64,000 nt of DNA from Bhargavaea cecembensis. Its GTDB lineage: Bacteria > Bacillota > Bacilli > Bacillales_A > Planococcaceae. The DNA lies in contig NZ_LN651372.1 of assembly GCF_000826125.2 (NCBI RefSeq), forward strand, positions 51,022-115,021, given 5' to 3'. The translations under genes and the position numbers were made by a program. The notes beneath the pieces are model-generated. The model had not been told where the DNA came from. It did not search any database and worked only from the letters and a program-made list of their open reading frames with translations. Shown here in pieces: positions 3,479-62,872 of this stretch (position 1 is the stretch's first letter; each line of letters opens with the position of its first letter).

Positions 3479-3591
3479 GTTTCGCTCGGTCCTGCTTTAG
3501 TTTCGGAGGCTCCTGCTTTAGTTTCGGAGGTCCCAGCTTTAGTTTCGAGGGCTCCTGCTTTAGTTTCGGGAGCCCCTGTTTTAGTTTCATG
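3470..3591. repeat. Array B: 21-bp direct repeats between convergent genes
   Basis: Units starting at 3491, 3512, 3533, 3554 and 3575 share CCTGCTTTAGTTTCG with variable 6-base tails; a degenerate unit precedes at 3470. All steps are exactly 21 bp. It separates the P1 peptidase terminator from the end of the penicillin acylase gene. Confidence 0.93.
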
Positions 3592-3603: not shown

Positions 3604-5967
3604 TCAAGGCTTGAGCTTCAGCACCTCCCCTTCCGATTTCCCGTCGATCCGCGTCTCGTGATAGTCGCCGTTCACCCAGTCCGGGGCCTGGTCGTGGAAC
3701 CATTTTGATTTCATGTGGCCGCTCTGGCCCGGGCCGACGAGGTGCCAGGATTTTGAGAGGTCGGACAGATCGGCGACGAACCGCCAGGAGGCGCCGTGGT
3801 CGGCGGAGCCGTCGTCTTTGAATCCGGCGGCCTGGACGGTGACGCCTGAGCCGCTCGTCGGCGTGCGCGGCGGGCTCAAGTACTTCTCGAAGATCGGCGA
3901 GGCACTGCCGAGCGGATGCGGGAAGACGAGCTGGTGGAAGTCGCCCCATCGCCAGCCGTCCGCATCTTTTCCGAATTCATCGGAAATGTCCGCGACCGCC
4001 TTCTCGAAAGCGTCTGTCACCCACCGGTCGACGCCGCCGTATTCCGTCACCCAGGCGCCCGGTTCGCCGGCGTATGCCTGGCGCATCATTTCATCGGTGA
4101 TATGGTTCTTGCCCGGCATGAGGGCATACACATCTTCCGGCATCGCCTGCCAGAACATCGTCTGCGGCAGCTGGCGCATCCATTTGTGGAAGATGAGCGG
4201 GGCGCTGAGGTCCTTGTCGTCTTCCTGATTCCACTCCTCAAGCAGCTTCACCGCTTTTCCGTACTCCTCGTCGGCCCCTGTAGCCCGCAGGGAGCCAAGC
4301 ATATCATCCAGGAACTCGCGGGCGTACAGGTTCTTCACATCCATCTGGAGCGCCATCATGTCTTCCGGCGTGAAGGAATCGCCTTCCTGCAAAACTTCGG
4401 CGATCCGCTCGTACCGGTACGGCTGCGCCCAGAAATCGGTGATATGGTAAGGATATTCCTCGCCGATGACCCGATTGTTCGCGGTCGCGATGAACCCTTC
4501 CTCCGGGTTGACGGTCCTTGGAAGCTCGTCGTACGGGATGAATCCTTCCCAGCCGTACTCGGATGAATCGCCCGGGACCGGAAGCTGGCCGTCGCCTTTT
4601 TTGCGGATCGGGATGTTGCCGTTCGCCTTGTAGGCGATCGTCCCGTCGGTGGAAGCGAAGACGAAGTTCTGGGCCGGCGCATTGAAGTTCTCGAGCGCCG
4701 TTTCGAACTCGTCCCAGTCGCCGGCCTTGTTCATCTTGAGGATCGCCTCGAGCTCGCGTGTCGGCTCAAGCGCCGTCCATTGCATCGACAGCACGTCCCC
4801 GCCCGTACCGGTGCTCTCCAGCATGACGTCCGAGATGACCGGACCGTGGCGGGTCGTGACGACTTCAAAGTCCACCGTCTCCCCGTCTTTCACTTTGATC
4901 GGCTCGTCGCGGACGGCCGCCCGCTCCCACTTGCCGTCAAAGCGGAATTCGGCCGGGTTATCCGGGTTCGGCGTCTCGATATACAGATCCTGCACATCCG
5001 GACCGACGTTCGTCACGCCCCAGGCCACGTCTTCGTTGTGGCCGAGGATGATGCCCGGGATGCCGCCGAAGATGACGCCCGTGACGTTCTGTTCGGGCGA
5101 CTCCAGATTCATTTCGTACCAGATCGACGGCGTCGTCAGGCCGAGGTGCGGGTCATCCGCAAGCAGCGGCTTGCCCGATGCCGTCTTGTCGCCCGCGACG
5201 ACCCAGTTGTTGCTTCCGTTGTGTTCCGGAGGGATGAGCGACGCATCAAACGCCCCTGCGATCGCCACCGGATTCGCCCGGTTCGCCTCGATGACCGACG
5301 GCGCGTCTTCCGGATAATGGATGAACAGTTCTTTCATCTTATTGCCATTGTACTCATTCACCGCCCAGTGACGGAATGCAAGCGCGGGCCAGTGCCCGCC
5401 GAGATCGTACGCCATGTATTTCCCGATCGTCAATGAATCGAGCGGCGTCCACTCCTCCGGCTCATAGCCGAGCAGCCGGAACTCGTAAGGCAGCTTCCCC
5501 TCTTCCTTCGCCTGGTCGATGAACGCGTTCACGCCTTCCGCAAACCATCCGAGCACCTGGCGGGCGTCTTCCCCGTAGCCGGACTCCGAATCGGCCGCGG
5601 CCTGCCTGAGGCTAAACGTGCGGAACAGCTTGTCCGTCGGCACGGCCGCCTCTCCCACGACTTCCGCCAGCCGGCCGGACGCCTGCCTGCGCGCCAAGTC
5701 CATCTGGAACAGGCGGTCCTGCGCCTGGACAAACCCCTGCGCCCTGTACAGATCCGCATCAGACTCCGCCCGGATATGCGGAACGCCTTTTTCATCACGG
5801 ACCACTGTCACTTCCCCTTCAAGCACCGGCACGGCCATCTCCCCTGACGTCACCGGCTTCGACTTCGATATGTAAGCGTTTACGAAAACCAGCGCGACAA
5901 TCGCCAGCACTGCGACCGTCCCGACAATCCCCAGAACGACCTTCAGCCATTTCGGCCATCTTCTCAT
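3604..5967 (-). CDS. Membrane-anchored penicillin acylase family Ntn hydrolase
   Basis: Member of the penicillin G acylase / acyl-homoserine-lactone acylase family (787 residues, the normal precursor length). The chain starts with a basic stretch and one hydrophobic segment (about residues 8-30), so it is exported and tethered outside the membrane. An alpha-chain region (about 40-210) is followed by the autoprocessing site and nucleophile Ser252 in HNGSNNWVVAG, then the beta chain with DDPHLGL. Such enzymes hydrolyse amide bonds of acylated amines (beta-lactams, acyl-homoserine lactones or peptides); the physiological substrate cannot be predicted here. It is transcribed alone, towards the P1 peptidase. 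A TGAATGA-type inverted repeat sits just upstream (5986-6007). Confidence 0.92.
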   Translation of the reverse strand: MRRWPKWLKVVLGIVGTVAVLAIVALVFVNAYISKSKPVTSGEMAVPVLEGEVTVVRDEKGVPHIRAESDADLYRAQGFVQAQDRLFQMDLARRQASGRLAEVVGEAAVPTDKLFRTFSLRQAAADSESGYGEDARQVLGWFAEGVNAFIDQAKEEGKLPYEFRLLGYEPEEWTPLDSLTIGKYMAYDLGGHWPALAFRHWAVNEYNGNKMKELFIHYPEDAPSVIEANRANPVAIAGAFDASLIPPEHNGSNNWVVAGDKTASGKPLLADDPHLGLTTPSIWYEMNLESPEQNVTGVIFGGIPGIILGHNEDVAWGVTNVGPDVQDLYIETPNPDNPAEFRFDGKWERAAVRDEPIKVKDGETVDFEVVTTRHGPVISDVMLESTGTGGDVLSMQWTALEPTRELEAILKMNKAGDWDEFETALENFNAPAQNFVFASTDGTIAYKANGNIPIRKKGDGQLPVPGDSSEYGWEGFIPYDELPRTVNPEEGFIATANNRVIGEEYPYHITDFWAQPYRYERIAEVLQEGDSFTPEDMMALQMDVKNLYAREFLDDMLGSLRATGADEEYGKAVKLLEEWNQEDDKDLSAPLIFHKWMRQLPQTMFWQAMPEDVYALMPGKNHITDEMMRQAYAGEPGAWVTEYGGVDRWVTDAFEKAVADISDEFGKDADGWRWGDFHQLVFPHPLGSASPIFEKYLSPPRTPTSGSGVTVQAAGFKDDGSADHGASWRFVADLSDLSKSWHLVGPGQSGHMKSKWFHDQAPDWVNGDYHETRIDGKSEGEVLKLKP

Positions 5968-5985
5968 CTGCCATCCCCCCTGCTA

Positions 5986-6157: not shown

Positions 6158-6246
6158 AAAACGTTGCGTATCTTTGCTGAAACATTGTTTATCTTTGCTG
6201 AAACGTTGCGTATCTTTCCTTAAACGTTGCGTATCCAAGCTGAAAC
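6158..6246. repeat. Array C2: 21-bp repeats of the GAAACGTTGCGTATC family
   Basis: Units start at 6158, 6179, 6200 and 6221 with core AAACGTTGCGTATCTTTGCT or close variants, ending in a partial fifth copy. The same unit recurs at 18670-18732. Confidence 0.9.
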
Positions 6247-6294
6247 GCCCCCGCCGCCCGCCGCTACTCGCACAACCGGCCACCCTCTTCCCAC

Positions 6295-9717: not shown

Positions 9718-12109
9718 TGTCCCCGCCCCCTTTCCTCGGCCTCAGCACGATGAGCGTGTAGACGCCGATCCCGGCAATGAACAGCACGACGACTTCGAGC
9801 ATCGTATCAAACGCCCGGAAGTCCCCGAGGATCGCGTTCACGATATTGCCGCCTCCGGCAAGCGTATAGGAATCCTCAAAGTAGCCGGATATCGTTTCGA
9901 AGATGTCATAGCCCCGGACTGTCAGCGCAAACCCGGTGACGAGCGCACCGGCGCCGAGTGCGATGATCGCATTGAAGATTTTCTTCCTTGCCGGTGCCCG
10001 CTCCGGCTTCCACTCGGGCAGGAAGCGGAAGCAGAGCAGAAACAGCACGGTCGTCACCGTCTCGATGACCGTCTGGGTGAGCGCGAGGTCCGGCGCCCGG
10101 AAGTAGATAAAGAAGATGGCGATCGAGTAACCGAGCACTCCGTTGAGCAAAGTCGCCGTGATCCGTGACTTCACGAACGGCATGGCGATCGCTGCGAACG
10201 ACATGATGAGGACGAAGGCAACCTCATAGACGGCGACCGGCCCCATCCGGAAATCGGGCTTGAACGCCCCCGTCAGGAACAGGCCGCTGCCCGCCGCAAC
10301 GAGAAAGAACACGTAGATATAAACGAAATAATCCCGCAGGCGGCCGGTCATGTACCTGTTTGTCAGCAGCGTCGAGCCGCCTTCCGCGACACCGAGGATG
10401 CGACGGTACACGATGTCCAGATTCCACCTGAACGGTGCCACCCGGTAAATGACGCGCCAGTGACGCAGCGTGATGAACAGGATCGCCCCCGCCGCAATGA
10501 CTCCAAGCGACATGAGAAGCGGCGTGTTGATCCCGTGCCAGGCGGCGATTTCCGGCACGAGGCCGGACTCTCCGGCAAGCGTCGGAAACACCGCCGGCAT
10601 GGCGGGACCGATCACATATTTTCCGGCAAGATTCGGAAAGAAGAAGATGCCGACGACGAAGATCCCCAGAATAACCGGCGGCAGCAGCATGCCTTTCGGC
10701 GCTTCATGCGGCACACGGTCCACCTTCTCCGGCTGGCGCGGCCCGAGAAACGTCCGGTAGACGATGATCGTGCAATAGACGAACGTGAAGACACTCGCCA
10801 CCCAGCCGATCACCGGGAACAGGACCGACACATCGGCCCCCGCAAACGGATTGCCCGAACCGATATCGACCGCGGATTCAAAGAACATCTCCTTGCCGAG
10901 GAAGCCGTTGAACGGCGGCAGGCCGGCCATCGAGAAACTGCCGATCACCGCCAGTGTGAACGTCACCGGCATGAGCGTCATCAGCCCGCCGAGCCGCCGG
11001 ATGTCCCGGGTCCCGAGCTCATGGTCGACGATGCCGACGACCATGAACAGGAGCCCCTTGAACGTCGAGTGGTTGACCATATAAAACAGCGCGGCAAACC
11101 CGGCCTGCGCGAACAAGACCTTCCCGGCATCCGTCCCTGCGGAAAGCGCGGCCGAACCGAAGCCGAGCAGGCTCATGATGAGGCCGAGCTGGCTGATCGT
11201 CGAATAAGCCAGCAGCGCCTTCAGGTCGTTCTGCTTCACCGCATTGAACGAACCCCAGAGAAGCGTGACGGTTCCGACGATGCTGACCGTCCAGAACCAT
11301 GTGTCCGTGCCGCCGAAGACGGGCGTGAACCGGGCGATGAGATAAATGCCCGCCTTCACCATCGTGGCGGAGTGGAGGTACGCGCTGACCGGCGTCGGCG
11401 CCTCCATCGCGTCCGGCAGCCAGATGTGGAACGGGAACTGGGCCGATTTTGTAAAGGCTCCAAGAAGCACGAGCACGAGCGCCGGGATGAACAGGGCCTC
11501 CCCGGACAATTCCGGTCGGAGCGCGATAATCTCCCGGATGCTGAACGTGCCGGTCATCGCGTAGAGCATCAGGAACCCGGCGAGCATCGCGATCCCGCCG
11601 AACACGGTGATGAGCATCGATTTCCGCGCCCCGTAGCGGGATCCTTTCCGGTGGTACCAGAACGCGATCAGCAGAAACGAGGAAATGCTCGTCAGCTCCC
11701 AGAACGCGTAAAGGACCATGAGGTTGTCCGAGAAGACGACCCCGAGCATCGACCCCATGAACATCAGAAGGTACGTGTAAAAATGGCCGAGCGACTCGCG
11801 TTCGGACAGATAATAGATGGAGTAAAGGACGACGAGCGCACCGACCCCGGTGATGAGGAGACCGAAGATCATGCTGAGCCCGTCGATGCGGAGCGACAGG
11901 TCGATCCCCGCCTCCGGGATCCACGGAACGGTGACATCCGCGGTTCTGCCGGAGGCGATCCGCGGCAAGATCCGCAAAAGCCCGGCGAACAGGACAAGCG
12001 GAACCGCCGCGACGAACCAGCCGATATGCCGGTTCGGGACAAGCCGGTACAGCAGCGGAATGACCGCCGCCACGGCAAAAGGAAAGATAATTCCGAGAAT
12101 GACAAGCAT
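9704..12109 (-). CDS. mrpA: Na+/H+ antiporter subunit A (MrpA)
   Basis: Largest Mrp subunit (801 residues), NuoL-like with a C-terminal extension related to MrpB/NuoJ. Visible signatures are YAFWELTSISSFLLIAFWY (channel glutamate), KSAQFPFHIWLPDAMEAPTP (lysine/His region) and SAYLHSATMVKAGIYLI. The start at 12109 was chosen by GGAGGG upstream and by homology of MLVILGIIFPFAVAA to the first helix; the open frame continues upstream but without hydrophobic character. It is the first gene of mrpABCDEFG. The complex exports Na+ in exchange for H+ and supports pH and salt tolerance. Confidence 0.96.
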   Translation of the reverse strand: MLVILGIIFPFAVAAVIPLLYRLVPNRHIGWFVAAVPLVLFAGLLRILPRIASGRTADVTVPWIPEAGIDLSLRIDGLSMIFGLLITGVGALVVLYSIYYLSERESLGHFYTYLLMFMGSMLGVVFSDNLMVLYAFWELTSISSFLLIAFWYHRKGSRYGARKSMLITVFGGIAMLAGFLMLYAMTGTFSIREIIALRPELSGEALFIPALVLVLLGAFTKSAQFPFHIWLPDAMEAPTPVSAYLHSATMVKAGIYLIARFTPVFGGTDTWFWTVSIVGTVTLLWGSFNAVKQNDLKALLAYSTISQLGLIMSLLGFGSAALSAGTDAGKVLFAQAGFAALFYMVNHSTFKGLLFMVVGIVDHELGTRDIRRLGGLMTLMPVTFTLAVIGSFSMAGLPPFNGFLGKEMFFESAVDIGSGNPFAGADVSVLFPVIGWVASVFTFVYCTIIVYRTFLGPRQPEKVDRVPHEAPKGMLLPPVILGIFVVGIFFFPNLAGKYVIGPAMPAVFPTLAGESGLVPEIAAWHGINTPLLMSLGVIAAGAILFITLRHWRVIYRVAPFRWNLDIVYRRILGVAEGGSTLLTNRYMTGRLRDYFVYIYVFFLVAAGSGLFLTGAFKPDFRMGPVAVYEVAFVLIMSFAAIAMPFVKSRITATLLNGVLGYSIAIFFIYFRAPDLALTQTVIETVTTVLFLLCFRFLPEWKPERAPARKKIFNAIIALGAGALVTGFALTVRGYDIFETISGYFEDSYTLAGGGNIVNAILGDFRAFDTMLEVVVLFIAGIGVYTLIVLRPRKGGGDIEGK

Positions 12110-12447
12110 AGAGACCCTCCAATGGTAGGCATGGCCATAAGTGCAGTGGCAAGGGAGACCTTGACGGACCGGCCGGCAGGGCGCATAATATGGGCGACAG
12201 GCCGGACTCCCGGACCCGAAGAATCCTGAGACCGGCATATGTACAAAAAGGGAGACCCTGTCCGCGACATGCGGGACGCCTGCCGTGCCGGTATTTCCCC
12301 AATCATCAATTATACAGGAAACAAGGCGCTCCTGCTAACATGCCCGCCCGGCATATTGCCTTCGCAGGGGCGATGTCTTATAATGTCTTGGTTCTCCGGG
12401 TGTTTGGCCCGTGACCACGCGATTATGAACAAGAGGTGAAATCCGCC
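12110..12447. promoter_or_regulatory. Divergent promoter region of mrp and the KdpD-like USP gene
   Basis: On the plus strand, TTGCCT (12356-12361) and TATAAT (12379-12384) are 17 bp apart and drive the USP-domain gene. On the minus strand, TATAAT (12309-12314) with TTAGCA 18 bp away could drive mrp, which would then have a leader of about 190 nt. The leader contains two similar AAGGGAGACC boxes (12152 and 12248 regions). No known riboswitch fold was recognised. Confidence 0.6.
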
Positions 12448-13131
12448 ATGATGAAAAAACCGGGGATGGACGAGCGCATCCTTGTATGTGTCTATTACGG
12501 ACCGAACGGCGAGCGGCTCATCCGCCGGGGACACCAGATGGCCAGCATGCTGGACTGCCCGTATTATATCCTGACGGTCGATCCGCTGCCGTTCGATGAA
12601 TTCGACGCCGACAAATCCGCCTACGTGGAAAGCTGGCAGGAGCTGGCCGATGAACTCGGTGCGGAAGCCTTCTTCCTCCGCGACGACGAAAAGCGCCCGT
12701 CCGCCAAAGTCATCAAGGAAGTGGCCTACGAACATAACATCACCCAAATCATCGTCGGACAGACTGCCCAGAGCCGCTGGGAGGAGATCACGAAAGGATC
12801 ATTCATCAACGTCCTCCTCCGTGAAATCCCCTTTGCCGACCTTCACGTCGTCTCCGTCGCCCGGACCGTCAAATCCGAAGAGGAAGGCATGTACGAAAAA
12901 GGCGTCCGCGCCTACCTCGTCAAGGAAAAGGACGGCTACCGCGTCAGCTTCACGATGTCGAAAGGCTGCGAATTCGAAGGCATCTTCTTCAAAGAGATCG
13001 GCACCGACTTCAACAACGGCATCTTCAAGTTCATGCACGACCACAAGATGTGCCAGGTCCACGTCCACGACGACCAAATCGAAGAGACGGGGACCGTCGA
13101 ACGGATCGCCGAAGAAAAACACGTCCAATAA
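12448..13131 (+). CDS. Orphan KdpD-type universal stress domain protein
   Basis: 227 residues. The first 140 or so look like the USP domain of the K+ sensor kinase KdpD: DERILVCVYYGPNGERLIRR, then AYEHNITQIIVGQTAQSRWE and KGSFINVLLREIPFADLHVV. No histidine kinase domain, membrane helix or KdpD N-terminal domain is present, so this is a stand-alone module followed by a C-terminal region of unknown fold (about 150-227). In KdpD this domain can bind nucleotides, in some species c-di-AMP; that is not proven here. It is divergent from mrpA, which suggests a link to cation homeostasis. Start: ATG 12448 with AGAGGTGA upstream; a GTG at 12436 is an alternative. Confidence 0.75.
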   Translation: MMKKPGMDERILVCVYYGPNGERLIRRGHQMASMLDCPYYILTVDPLPFDEFDADKSAYVESWQELADELGAEAFFLRDDEKRPSAKVIKEVAYEHNITQIIVGQTAQSRWEEITKGSFINVLLREIPFADLHVVSVARTVKSEEEGMYEKGVRAYLVKEKDGYRVSFTMSKGCEFEGIFFKEIGTDFNNGIFKFMHDHKMCQVHVHDDQIEETGTVERIAEEKHVQ

Positions 13132-13137
13132 TTCAAA

Positions 13138-13184
13138 GCCGCAGATTTTGGGGAGTCCATTCCCCTTGGATCTGCGGCTTTTTT
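13138..13184 (+). terminator. Terminator of the USP-domain gene
   Basis: Stem GCCGCAGAT/ATCTGCGGC with inner GGGGA/TCCCC pairing, followed by TTTTTT. Confidence 0.9.
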
Positions 13185-13230
13185 ATGAGCCGGGCCGGGG
13201 CAGGTTCTCTCAAAAACGGATTTCCTGAGG

Positions 13231-13335
13231 AGCGTTATCTTTATCCGGTAAAGCGTTATCTTTATCGCCGGAAGCGTTATCTTTATGCGGTAAAACGTTA
13301 TCTTTATCGCCGGGAGCGTTATCTTTATCCGAATA
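13231..13335. repeat. Array D: five 21-bp repeats between convergent genes
   Basis: Units start at 13231, 13252, 13273, 13294 and 13315 with the core AGCGTTATCTTTAT and 7-base tails that alternate between two types (CCGGTAA/GCGGTAA and CGCCGGA/CGCCGGG). Lies between the two terminators. Confidence 0.95.
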
Positions 13336-18585: not shown

Positions 18586-18669
18586 CCACCTAACCAGCGC
18601 TTTCCATGAGTGCCTCGCCCATTCCCGCGGCGCCTGCCAACTTCTTTACTCAGAGGGAGACACAATCGT

Positions 18670-18732
18670 GAAACGTTGTGTATCTTTGCTGAAACGTTGT
18701 GTATCTTCGTTGAAGCGTTGCGGATCTATATT
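18670..18732. repeat. Array E2: three 21-bp units of the GAAACGTTGTGTATC family
   Basis: Units start at 18670, 18691 and 18712; the first two share GAAACGTTGTGTATCTT, the third is GAAGCGTTGCGGATCT. Same family as array C2, about 12.5 kb away. Confidence 0.9.
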
Positions 18733-21667: not shown

Positions 21668-21707
21668 AGATGAATGGGCCAGTCCGGACAGCGCCGGAGA
21701 CGTCTCC

Positions 21708-21786
21708 GATTACACTCGAGGCCCTCCGGATTACACTCAGGCGGCCTCCGATTACACCCGAAGCTTCCCGTCCCGGATCACACTCA
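21708..21786. repeat. Array F: 21-bp repeats with GATTACACTC core
   Basis: GATTACACTC or variants at 21708, 21729 and 21750 (21-bp steps) and GATCACACTC at 21776 (26-bp step). On the minus strand the core reads GAGTGTAATC, so it is close to the GAGTGTCAAC/GAGTGTCATC families of arrays C1, H1 and I. Confidence 0.85.
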
Positions 21787-40640: not shown

Positions 40641-40745
40641 GAGTGTCAACTTTGTTATGGCGAGTGTCAATCTTTTTATGTCGAGTGCTAATTTTAATCG
40701 GGTGAATGGCAACTTTGCGAGTGTAAGTGTCAACTTCGGCAAAGA
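40641..40745. repeat. Array H1: five 21-bp units of the GAGTGTCAACTT family
   Basis: Units start at 40641, 40662, 40683, 40704 and 40725 with heads GAGTGTCAACTT, GAGTGTCAATCT, GAGTGCTAATTT, GAATGGCAACTT and AAGTGTCAACTT. All steps are 21 bp. The same head occurs in arrays C1 and E1. Confidence 0.93.
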
Positions 40746-40796: not shown

Positions 40797-41458
40797 TGTA
40801 TTGTAAACCTGCTCTCCATATTTCAAATCCCTCTCCCATATTGTAAATCTACTCTCCATATTTCAATTTCCCCTCTCATATTGTAATTCTGCCCTCCATG
40901 TTTTAAATTCCCTCTCCATATTGTAAATCCACTCTCCATGTTTCAAATCCCTCTCCCATATTGTAAATCTACTCTCCATATTTCAATTTCCCCTCTCCAT
41001 ATTGTAAATCCACTCTCCATATTTCAAATCCCTCTGCCATATTGTAAATCTGCTCTCCATGTTTTAAATTCTCTCTCCATATTGTAAATCCACTCTCCAT
41101 GTTTCAAATCCCTCTCCCATATTGTAAATCTACTCTCCATATTTCAATTTCCCCTCTCCATATTGTAAATCTGCTTTCCATATTTCAAATCCCTCTGCCA
41201 TATTGTAAACCTGCTCTCCATATTTCAAATCCCTCTCCCATATTATAAATCTACTCTCCATATTTCAATTTCCCCTCCCATATTGTAAATCTACTCTCCA
41301 TATTTTAAATTCCCTCTCCATATTATAATTCCGCTCTCTATGTTTCAATTTCCCCTCCCATATTGTAAATCCACTCTCCATATTTCAAATCCCTCTGCCA
41401 TATTGTAAATCCACTCTCCATATTTCAAATCCTGCCGCCCTATTGTAATTTCCACGCT
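40797..41458. repeat. Array H2: about 33 copies of an AT-rich 20-bp repeat
   Basis: CATATT landmarks recur every 20 bp from 40797 to 41439, with two 21-bp steps. Two unit types alternate, CATATTGTAAATCYACTCTC and CATATTTCAAATCCCTCTCC, giving a 40-bp dimer. A three-unit block recurs at 120 and 180 bp, showing later amplification. About 660 bp with no gene; much more AT-rich than its surroundings. Confidence 0.97.
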
Positions 41459-47419: not shown

Positions 47420-47442
47420 GGATGTTCGGGGGGGAATCGGGT

Positions 47443-47547
47443 GAGTGTCATCGCAAGCCGGTCGAGTGTTATCGCAAGCCGATCGAGTGTCATCGCATAT
47501 GGCATGGGTGTCATCGCAAGCCGCGTGAGTGTCACCGGAACATCCGA
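47443..47547. repeat. Array I: five 21-bp units of the GAGTGTCATCGC family
   Basis: Units start at 47443, 47464, 47485, 47506 and 47527, all steps 21 bp, with core GAGTGTCATCGCAAGCC and small changes. Head GAGTGTCA is shared with arrays C1, E1 and H1. Confidence 0.94.
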
Positions 47548-62626: not shown

Positions 62627-62834
62627 GAGTGAGGAGAGTTTGAGCGTGAGTGACGCAAGTTTGGCCGCGAGTGACGCGAGTTTGGCTTCGAGTGACGCAA
62701 GTTTGGCCGCGAGTGACGCGAGTTTGGCCGCGAGTGAGCCAAGTCGGCGCGAGTGACGCAAGTTTGGATCCGAGTGACGCAAGTTTGGCCGCGAGTGACG
62801 CGAGTTTGGCCGCGAGTGACGCGAGTTTGGCCGC
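62627..62834. repeat. Array J: ten 21-bp units of the GAGTGACGCAAGTTTGG family
   Basis: Units start at 62627, 62648, 62669, 62690, 62711, 62732, 62751, 62772, 62793 and 62814; all steps are 21 bp except one of 19. Most read GAGTGACGCAAGTTTGGCC or GAGTGACGCGAGTTTGGCC. Begins 7 bp after the nitroreductase stop codon and ends 38 bp before the next start. Confidence 0.97.
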
Positions 62835-62872
62835 GGATGGCCGCGGTGAATCAGAAGAAAGCAGGGTGAATG

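Follow-up and report, generated by a model that had tools for sequence, protein, structure and literature searches.

A KdpD-type USP protein with a conserved C-terminal domain is co-inherited with one class of Mrp antiporter

Introduction

What does a KdpD-type USP domain do when it stands free of any kinase and beside the genes of an Mrp antiporter? The question is raised by a gene, here called usp, in a stretch of 64,000 nucleotides from Bhargavaea cecembensis (contig NZ_LN651372.1, positions 51,022 to 115,021; hereafter the window, with positions counted from its first letter). The gene encodes a protein of 227 residues and is divergent from mrpA, which heads an mrp gene cluster on the minus strand. 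Many bacteria use Mrp antiporters for tolerance of Na+ and alkali (passages of PMC5809693). No dedicated Mrp regulatory protein is named in the titles and abstract beginnings listed by searches of an open-access library, with up to 12 entries per search; in titles and abstract beginnings from the same library, together with some passages, neither the USP fusion, nor its C-terminal domain, nor a tie to Mrp was found. The comparisons described below show that the inheritance of usp follows one class of the antiporter, Mrp1. As for its role, we give roughly even odds to a dedicated cytoplasmic regulator that acts post-translationally on Mrp1 and responds to an adenine nucleotide.

Co-inheritance of usp with Mrp1

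The genome of B. cecembensis contains two mrpA genes, 52% identical to each other. The NCBIfam model NF009285 was considered as a discriminator and set aside, because both classes pass its cut-off; BLAST E-values and a tree were used instead, with Mrp1 defined by a best MrpA E-value of 1e-285 or lower and Mrp2 by values from 1e-199 to 1e-258. In the sample of the order, 222 of 261 genomes have a match to the Usp protein (in one, G256, a single gene split over two contigs). Three of them (survey codes G011, G072 and G171) match over the USP part only, within open reading frames (ORFs) of 784 and 388 residues, and are not counted, which leaves 219 carriers. Mrp1 is present by E-value in 217 carriers, while the other two (G232 and G218) fell on the Mrp2 side by E-value but, on individual inspection, have Mrp1 sequence directly beside usp (loci L209 and L210), truncated at the end of a contig at one locus and split between two reading frames at the other. 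None of the 42 non-carriers has Mrp1, 39 having Mrp2 only and three neither class; this table was read by eye from listings, and, of the 39 genomes in which the search with the Usp protein gave no match, 19 were assigned by elimination. In G011 and G072, two USP matches lie within one long ORF.

The same specificity is seen from the side of the antiporter. No usp gene was found in the flanks (about 1.5 kb) of 41 loci of Mrp2 or other MrpA type. In a tree of 76 MrpA sequences (three of 79, L131, L236 and L239, were excluded because they were short or contained internal stops), the MrpA proteins linked to a divergent usp form one clade and those linked to a co-directional usp another, each with support of 100, and the MrpA of three loci whose genomes hold usp elsewhere (L232-L234) is sister to the co-directional clade. 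At the level of the class, 169 of 398 genomes match at 1e-12, many over the USP part only and inside longer ORFs, so that full-length carriers were counted with the profile of the C-terminal domain. All 56 of these fall among the 188 genomes with MrpA. MrpA is also present in 132 of the remaining 342 genomes, and thus MrpA as such does not need the Usp protein. The link between usp and Mrp1 is an observation and is near certain.

Gene arrangement

In the sample of the family of B. cecembensis, 166 of 200 genomes have some match to usp, the USP-only matches of G011, G072 and G171 included. The gene is divergent from mrpA in all 50 loci of a first set (the 30 best matches and 20 chosen for diversity), in all 80 loci of named genomes (the best 80 of 260 relatives found) and in all ten more distant loci from the class survey; a recheck by script gave 140 of 140, although the sets of 50 and 80 share genomes (for example L002-L008 with L059-L065) and are not independent. 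Among the named carriers are Edaphobacillus, Bhargavaea, Sporosarcina, Psychrobacillus, Planococcus, Chryseomicrobium, Lederbergia, Halalkalibacterium and Paenibacillus. A first-pass annotation of the window had suggested that the pairing of usp with mrp is functional, an idea that would have fallen if close relatives lacked the pairing; it is conserved far beyond them. Two genome labels in the named set, Arthrobacter beigongshangensis (L068) and Bacillus subtilis DE0224 (L113), are probably wrong, as these loci group with Sporosarcina-type and Lederbergia-type relatives.

Outside the family, 29 gene copies comprise the ten divergent ones, 11 that lie ahead of mrpA on the same strand at a distance of 31-130 bp, one beside TrkA-type and TrkH-type genes, and seven others. 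The co-directional loci all belong to one family (code f3), in which four other genomes (G616, G364, G413 and G600) have the divergent order; f3 is probably Paenibacillaceae, a reading based solely on the grouping of G616 with Paenibacillus ihumii in the MrpA tree. At the single locus of K+-transport type (L179), genes for a P-type ATPase, for a chemoreceptor-type protein and for a protein with two KdpD domains are followed by the usp relative and then by the TrkA-type and TrkH-type genes, a pair that we take to be of the KtrAB pattern. The KdpD-like protein of this locus (3649-5970) carries the KdpD domain twice and no kinase by Pfam.

Other contexts were noted in passing. Two tandem paralogs of 223 and 221 residues lie between other genes in L188 (5971-7313), and the same genome also holds a copy divergent from mrpA (L173). 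In three f3 loci (L181, L183 and L190), usp is away from mrp and adjoins a gene for a protein with LALPD and HCGLL motifs, which in L183 has no Pfam match.

Domain architecture of the Usp protein

The first part of the protein belongs to the USP superfamily, its score against Pfam PF00582 being 25.8 bits for a gathering cut-off of 24, and Usp is the sole Pfam family matched. The affinity with KdpD is indicated by the NCBIfam model KdpD_non_kinase (NF038185), which matches residues 4-136 only (2e-34; 119.5 bits, below the cut-off of 550), and by the NCBIfam KdpD model (5e-13), which covers the USP part only and remains far under its cut-off. A model of the protein, built from 42 aligned sequences with a mean pLDDT of 75, finds as its best structural match the c-di-AMP-bound USP domain of Staphylococcus aureus KdpD (7ji4; Z 15.4, root-mean-square deviation 2.9, 123 residues), and the predicted fold of residues 6-139 also matches the USP structures 1jmv (Z 14.7) and 3tnj (Z 13.8). 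Searches of solved structures by sequence gave a single chance match with the whole protein (E 0.6) and none with profile A1 at E 0.01.

No histidine kinase domain is found in the 227 residues by Pfam and NCBIfam, nor any DNA-binding domain in the same scans. The N-terminal KdpD domain (PF02702) is missing from the protein by Pfam and from the whole genome, in a search whose control list contained E. coli matches. With no kinase or other domain beside USP and no KdpD domain in the genome, the Usp protein must act without one. The initial description of a stand-alone KdpD-type USP domain is thereby borne out.

So is its fusion to an uncharacterized region of about 80 residues: 81 conserved residues, without a Pfam or NCBIfam match, form the C-terminal domain. 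Predicted alone, the domain has five strands and one helix, with a mean pLDDT of 86.6. Its signature in alignment A5 is G-x-F-(F/Y)-x4-T-(D/E)-F-x2-G, which contains five of the six residues invariant across 22 aligned relatives; a conserved patch of the domain reads GIFFKE-GTDF--G-FKF, and at several of its positions even distant relatives show no variation. When the 22 members of A5 were scanned with Pfam and NCBIfam, ten stray families came up, none of them in more than one member and all at E 0.003 or worse. Fold searches ended without a clear match (best Foldseek E 0.98, best VIA Z 3.8). The similarity to SH3-like small barrels (NusG, RfaH, L21e and NdhS) at VIA Z 2-3 and Foldseek E of about 1 or worse is not used as evidence, and profile A5 searched against solved structures returned two matches of no use (E 0.45 and 0.6).

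In the 398 genomes of the class, the C-terminal profile gives 62 matches, two of which (E about 0.007) resemble noise. The 60 clear ones, in 56 genomes, sit in open frames of 214-275 residues and are all covered over their full length by the whole-protein profile; consequently, the domain is never seen outside the USP fusion in this sample.

A candidate nucleotide-responsive regulator of Mrp1

The proposal of a regulator starts from the protein itself, with the fold predicted for its first domain and the conservation of its second, and from the fact that its gene is co-inherited with Mrp1 and adjacent to it. The protein is a soluble USP that lacks kinase and DNA-binding domains; its gene accompanies one antiporter class in two different orders and occurs once at a locus of K+-transport type, which fits a ligand-sensing partner of a transporter. 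In such a scheme the KdpD-type USP domain would be the sensor, most likely binding an adenine nucleotide, and the small C-terminal beta domain, a candidate output since the protein has no kinase domain, would contact the Mrp complex or a partner. Antiport activity would then probably be altered after synthesis of the complex, by analogy with the Usp domain of short KdpD acting on Kdp and with the possible action of TeaD on TeaABC. In short KdpD, Kdp is inhibited by a serine kinase domain under the control of the Usp domain (passages of PMC11018627), and TeaD possibly regulates TeaABC (passages of PMC5549992). The wider role in Na+/K+ or pH signalling suggested at the outset may hold as well.

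Several observations weigh against this proposal. Co-inheritance does not separate control of activity from control of expression or from assembly. The gap between usp and mrpA exceeds 600 bp in 11 of the 140 divergent loci, and five of these long gaps hold ORFs of 61-90 residues that are possible genes. Seven of the 29 copies outside the family (L180, L181, L183, L190, L195 and the two tandem copies in L188) have no mrpA within the 6 kb fetched on either side. The expected nucleotide motifs are also absent or incomplete. The ATP motif G-X2-G-X9-G(S/T) appears as G104-x2-A107-x9-G117-S118, with Ala107 in place of the second Gly, and the c-di-AMP motif of KdpD USPs, (A/G/C)XSXSX2N(Y/F) (passages of PMC8214093), corresponds to C14-V-Y16-Y-G18-P-N-G-E, with Tyr16 and Gly18 where Ser is expected. 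Thus, of the two ligands that the first-pass annotation had put forward, ATP has an imperfect motif and c-di-AMP is not predicted by the published one.

A related explanation, compatible with the others, is that the Usp protein is a c-di-AMP receptor coupling the K+ or osmotic state of the cell to Mrp1; we regard it as possible, though the odds are clearly against it. In its favor, the closest fold is that of a c-di-AMP-bound domain, the genome encodes a diadenylate cyclase domain, and two residues, Cys14 and Gly104, agree with the inner adenosine pocket of passages in PMC8214093. On the other side, the equivalents of Ser244, Ser246 and Tyr271, placed by eye according to spacing, are Tyr16, Gly18 and either Thr43 or Val44, and the motif is absent from all 20 rows of alignment A1. 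The alternative motif SXS-X20-FTAXY (passages of PMC4686210) is not found either, strand 2 reading YYILTVD in the window. The SxS element is, however, also missing from nine other aligned KdpD-type USPs, and its lack says little for or against binding. Control of a short KdpD by c-di-AMP is reported in passages of PMC11018627, and failure of the motif does not exclude binding.

The intergenic region and control of expression

The gap between usp and mrpA contains three promoter-like sites, and a fourth lies inside usp, against 0.6 expected in the scanned region. All are consensus matches, and the counts that follow are inflated by related sequences. The distal usp site, P1, is conserved in most relatives: among the 80 named gaps, 64 have its pattern TTGACN-N17-NATAAT on the usp strand and none has it on the opposite strand, for a mean of 0.08 of 80, and a maximum of 2, in 100 shuffles. 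The mrp element TGTATA(A/C)T is found on the mrp strand in 74 of the 80 gaps and on the usp strand in 11. The -10 hexamer of the proximal usp site is kept in six Bhargavaea rows and altered in Edaphobacillus (L059). Among the 16 gaps without P1 are those of Planococcus, Chryseomicrobium and three Lederbergia, and nine of the 16 have, no more than 100 bases from the start of usp, a site that matches at 10 or 11 of 12 positions.

It had been proposed that each gene has its own promoter in the shared gap. Promoter-like sites do exist on both strands, but the conserved P1 and the mrp site are not back to back: in the window P1 is closer to mrpA than the mrp site is, and in all 64 loci with P1 the mrp element lies on its usp side. 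As the two matches face each other, the leaders would overlap; for transcripts that start about 7 bases past each -10 hexamer, the overlap predicted in the window is about 105 bases.

This geometry lends itself to another explanation, namely that usp controls the expression of mrp, either through an effect of the protein on a transcription factor or because transcription from P1 crosses the leader and promoter of mrp in antisense, with mutual damping in the manner of an excludon. The facing sites and the predicted overlap speak for it. Since the protein has no recognizable DNA-binding domain, P1 is missing from 16 of the 80 gaps, the order is co-directional in 11 distant loci and the promoters themselves are consensus matches, we consider control of expression unlikely, at about the level of an outside chance.

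At gathering scores, no Rfam family matches positions 1-30000. The only candidate in 12050-12500, sroE, is far below threshold (E 0.83; 15.4 bits for a gathering score of 51), so that Rfam lends no support to a riboswitch of ydaO or Na+ type between usp and mrpA.

Assembly, chance adjacency and implications

The Usp protein might instead be a factor for the assembly or stability of the seven-subunit Mrp1 complex, with the USP fold serving as a scaffold and the nucleotide having no part in signalling. The strict tie to one MrpA class agrees with this, and the patch conserved in the C-terminal domain, with residues invariant in distant relatives, is what a conserved contact would look like. This explanation is nevertheless improbable in view of the 41 other sampled MrpA loci that do without such a neighbor, the relative found beside TrkA-type and TrkH-type genes, and the position of usp in a separate, divergent transcription unit at most loci. 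That usp is a functionally unrelated neighbor kept in place by slow rearrangement is nearly refuted: many loci do keep the same gene order, murB downstream included, but it is contradicted by the two arrangements with mrp, by the joint presence of usp and Mrp1 in 219 genomes and their joint absence from 42, and by the restriction of the link to particular clades.

A post-translational regulator of Mrp1 that senses an adenine nucleotide thus stays the preferred explanation. A bolder version of it, which we advance tentatively and with odds well short of even, is that the Usp protein adds to a whole clade of Mrp antiporters an eighth component, regulatory and so far undescribed. It would be a mobile module made of a KdpD-type USP sensor and a new beta output domain, attached also to Ktr-type K+ uptake and wired in most divergent loci by facing promoters with overlapping leaders. 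Present with one Mrp class and missing where that class is missing, the Usp protein offers a direct, testable entry to the tuning of antiport by cytoplasmic K+, Na+, pH or nucleotide state. If regulation of this kind is true, the KdpD USP sensor would be extended from K+ uptake to Na+/H+ exchange, and the C-terminal domain would receive its first function.

Features of the locus

The ORF of usp was confirmed with an ATG start at 12448 and a stop codon ending at 13131; the mechanical list of ORFs places the start elsewhere, at a GTG at 12436. Nine bases separate the ribosome binding site AAGAGGTG from the ATG. The inverted repeat and T run directly 3' of the stop codon indicate that usp is probably monocistronic; this terminator is absent from the output of the motif scan, whose loop limit is 8. 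The mrpA product scores 1131.5 bits against PRK12645, for a cut-off of 1028. The start codons of mrpB to mrpG were picked by eye, and the names of mrpE, mrpF and mrpG are presumed from gene order. The features are collected in Table 1.

Table 1. Coordinates of usp, the neighboring mrp genes and associated elements in the window.
Feature	Positions	Strand	Basis
usp, 227-residue stand-alone KdpD-type USP protein with C-terminal domain	12448-13131	+	ORF, profile matches, full-length relatives
USP domain, residues 8-138	12469-12861	+	7ji4 structural match; Pfam Usp
C-terminal domain, residues 147-227	12886-13128	+	predicted model, alignment A5
Ribosome binding site AAGAGGTG	12431-12438	+	sequence; kept in near relatives, present 5' of many others
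Inverted repeat followed by T run, likely usp terminator	13135-13186	+	direct sequence reading
Distal usp promoter-like site P1, TTGACG-N17-CATAAT	12161-12189	+	consensus match, conserved
Proximal usp promoter-like site, TTGCCT-N17-TATAAT	12356-12384	+	consensus match
mrp promoter-like site, TTAGCA-N18-TATAAT	12309-12338	-	consensus match
mrpA (Mrp1 type)	12109-9704	-	PRK12645 above cut-off; class and tree via near relatives
mrpB to mrpG, in order	9717-6311	-	ORFs
mrpB	9717-9295	-	ORF; query matched other mrp loci
mrpC	9291-8953	-	ORF; query matched other mrp loci
mrpD	8963-7467	-	ORF; query matched other mrp loci
mrpE	7474-6956	-	ORF
mrpF	6956-6672	-	ORF
mrpG	6694-6311	-	ORF

The window also contains nine tandem arrays with a period of 21 bp and differing units, one of which (13231-13331) falls between usp and murB; the others are at 2266-2363, 3490-3588, 6159-6247, 18669-18727, 21697-21761, 40641-40687, 47442-47534 and 62627-62835. 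The core GCGTTATCTTTAT occurs 28 times in forward and 27 times in reverse orientation in the genome of 3.16 Mb, often 21, 42 or 63 bp apart, and its reversed control not at all. A further tandem array of 634 bp (40799-41432) has a period of 40 (15.8 copies) and a higher-order period of 161.

Comparison with known systems

The USP domain of S. aureus KdpD (7ji4) resembles the Usp protein in the predicted fold of residues 8-138, in the small residue that ends strand 1 (Cys14) and in the first Walker Gly (Gly104). Unlike S. aureus KdpD, the Usp protein stands alone, without KdpD, membrane or kinase domain; the residues of its c-di-AMP motif are replaced and it carries an additional C-terminal domain. 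Short KdpD (NF038185; KdpD of Deinococcus geothermalis) resembles the Usp protein in that its USP domain is likewise devoid of a histidine kinase and tied to a cation transporter. The Usp protein differs in being linked to Mrp and not to Kdp, and in having no PF02702, which is the controlling domain of short KdpD in the passages of PMC11018627 consulted.

With the ATP-binding stand-alone USPs, the Usp protein shares the fold (1mjh, Z 10.7; 2z08, Z 11.9) and Gly104, Gly117 and Ser118 of the motif; in contrast to 1mjh and 2z08, it has Ala107 for the second Gly and no Asp in the first loop. Transporter-serving USPs as a kind are already known, as exemplified by TeaD, the USP of the ectoine transporter TeaABC (3hgm), which the Usp protein resembles as a possible transporter-regulating USP and in fold (Z 11.6). 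The linkage of the gene to a transporter operon, which is the mark of a TeaD-like regulator, is found here as well, while TeaD is a plain USP of 135 residues (3hgm_C), without the C-terminal domain, and goes with a different class of transporter.
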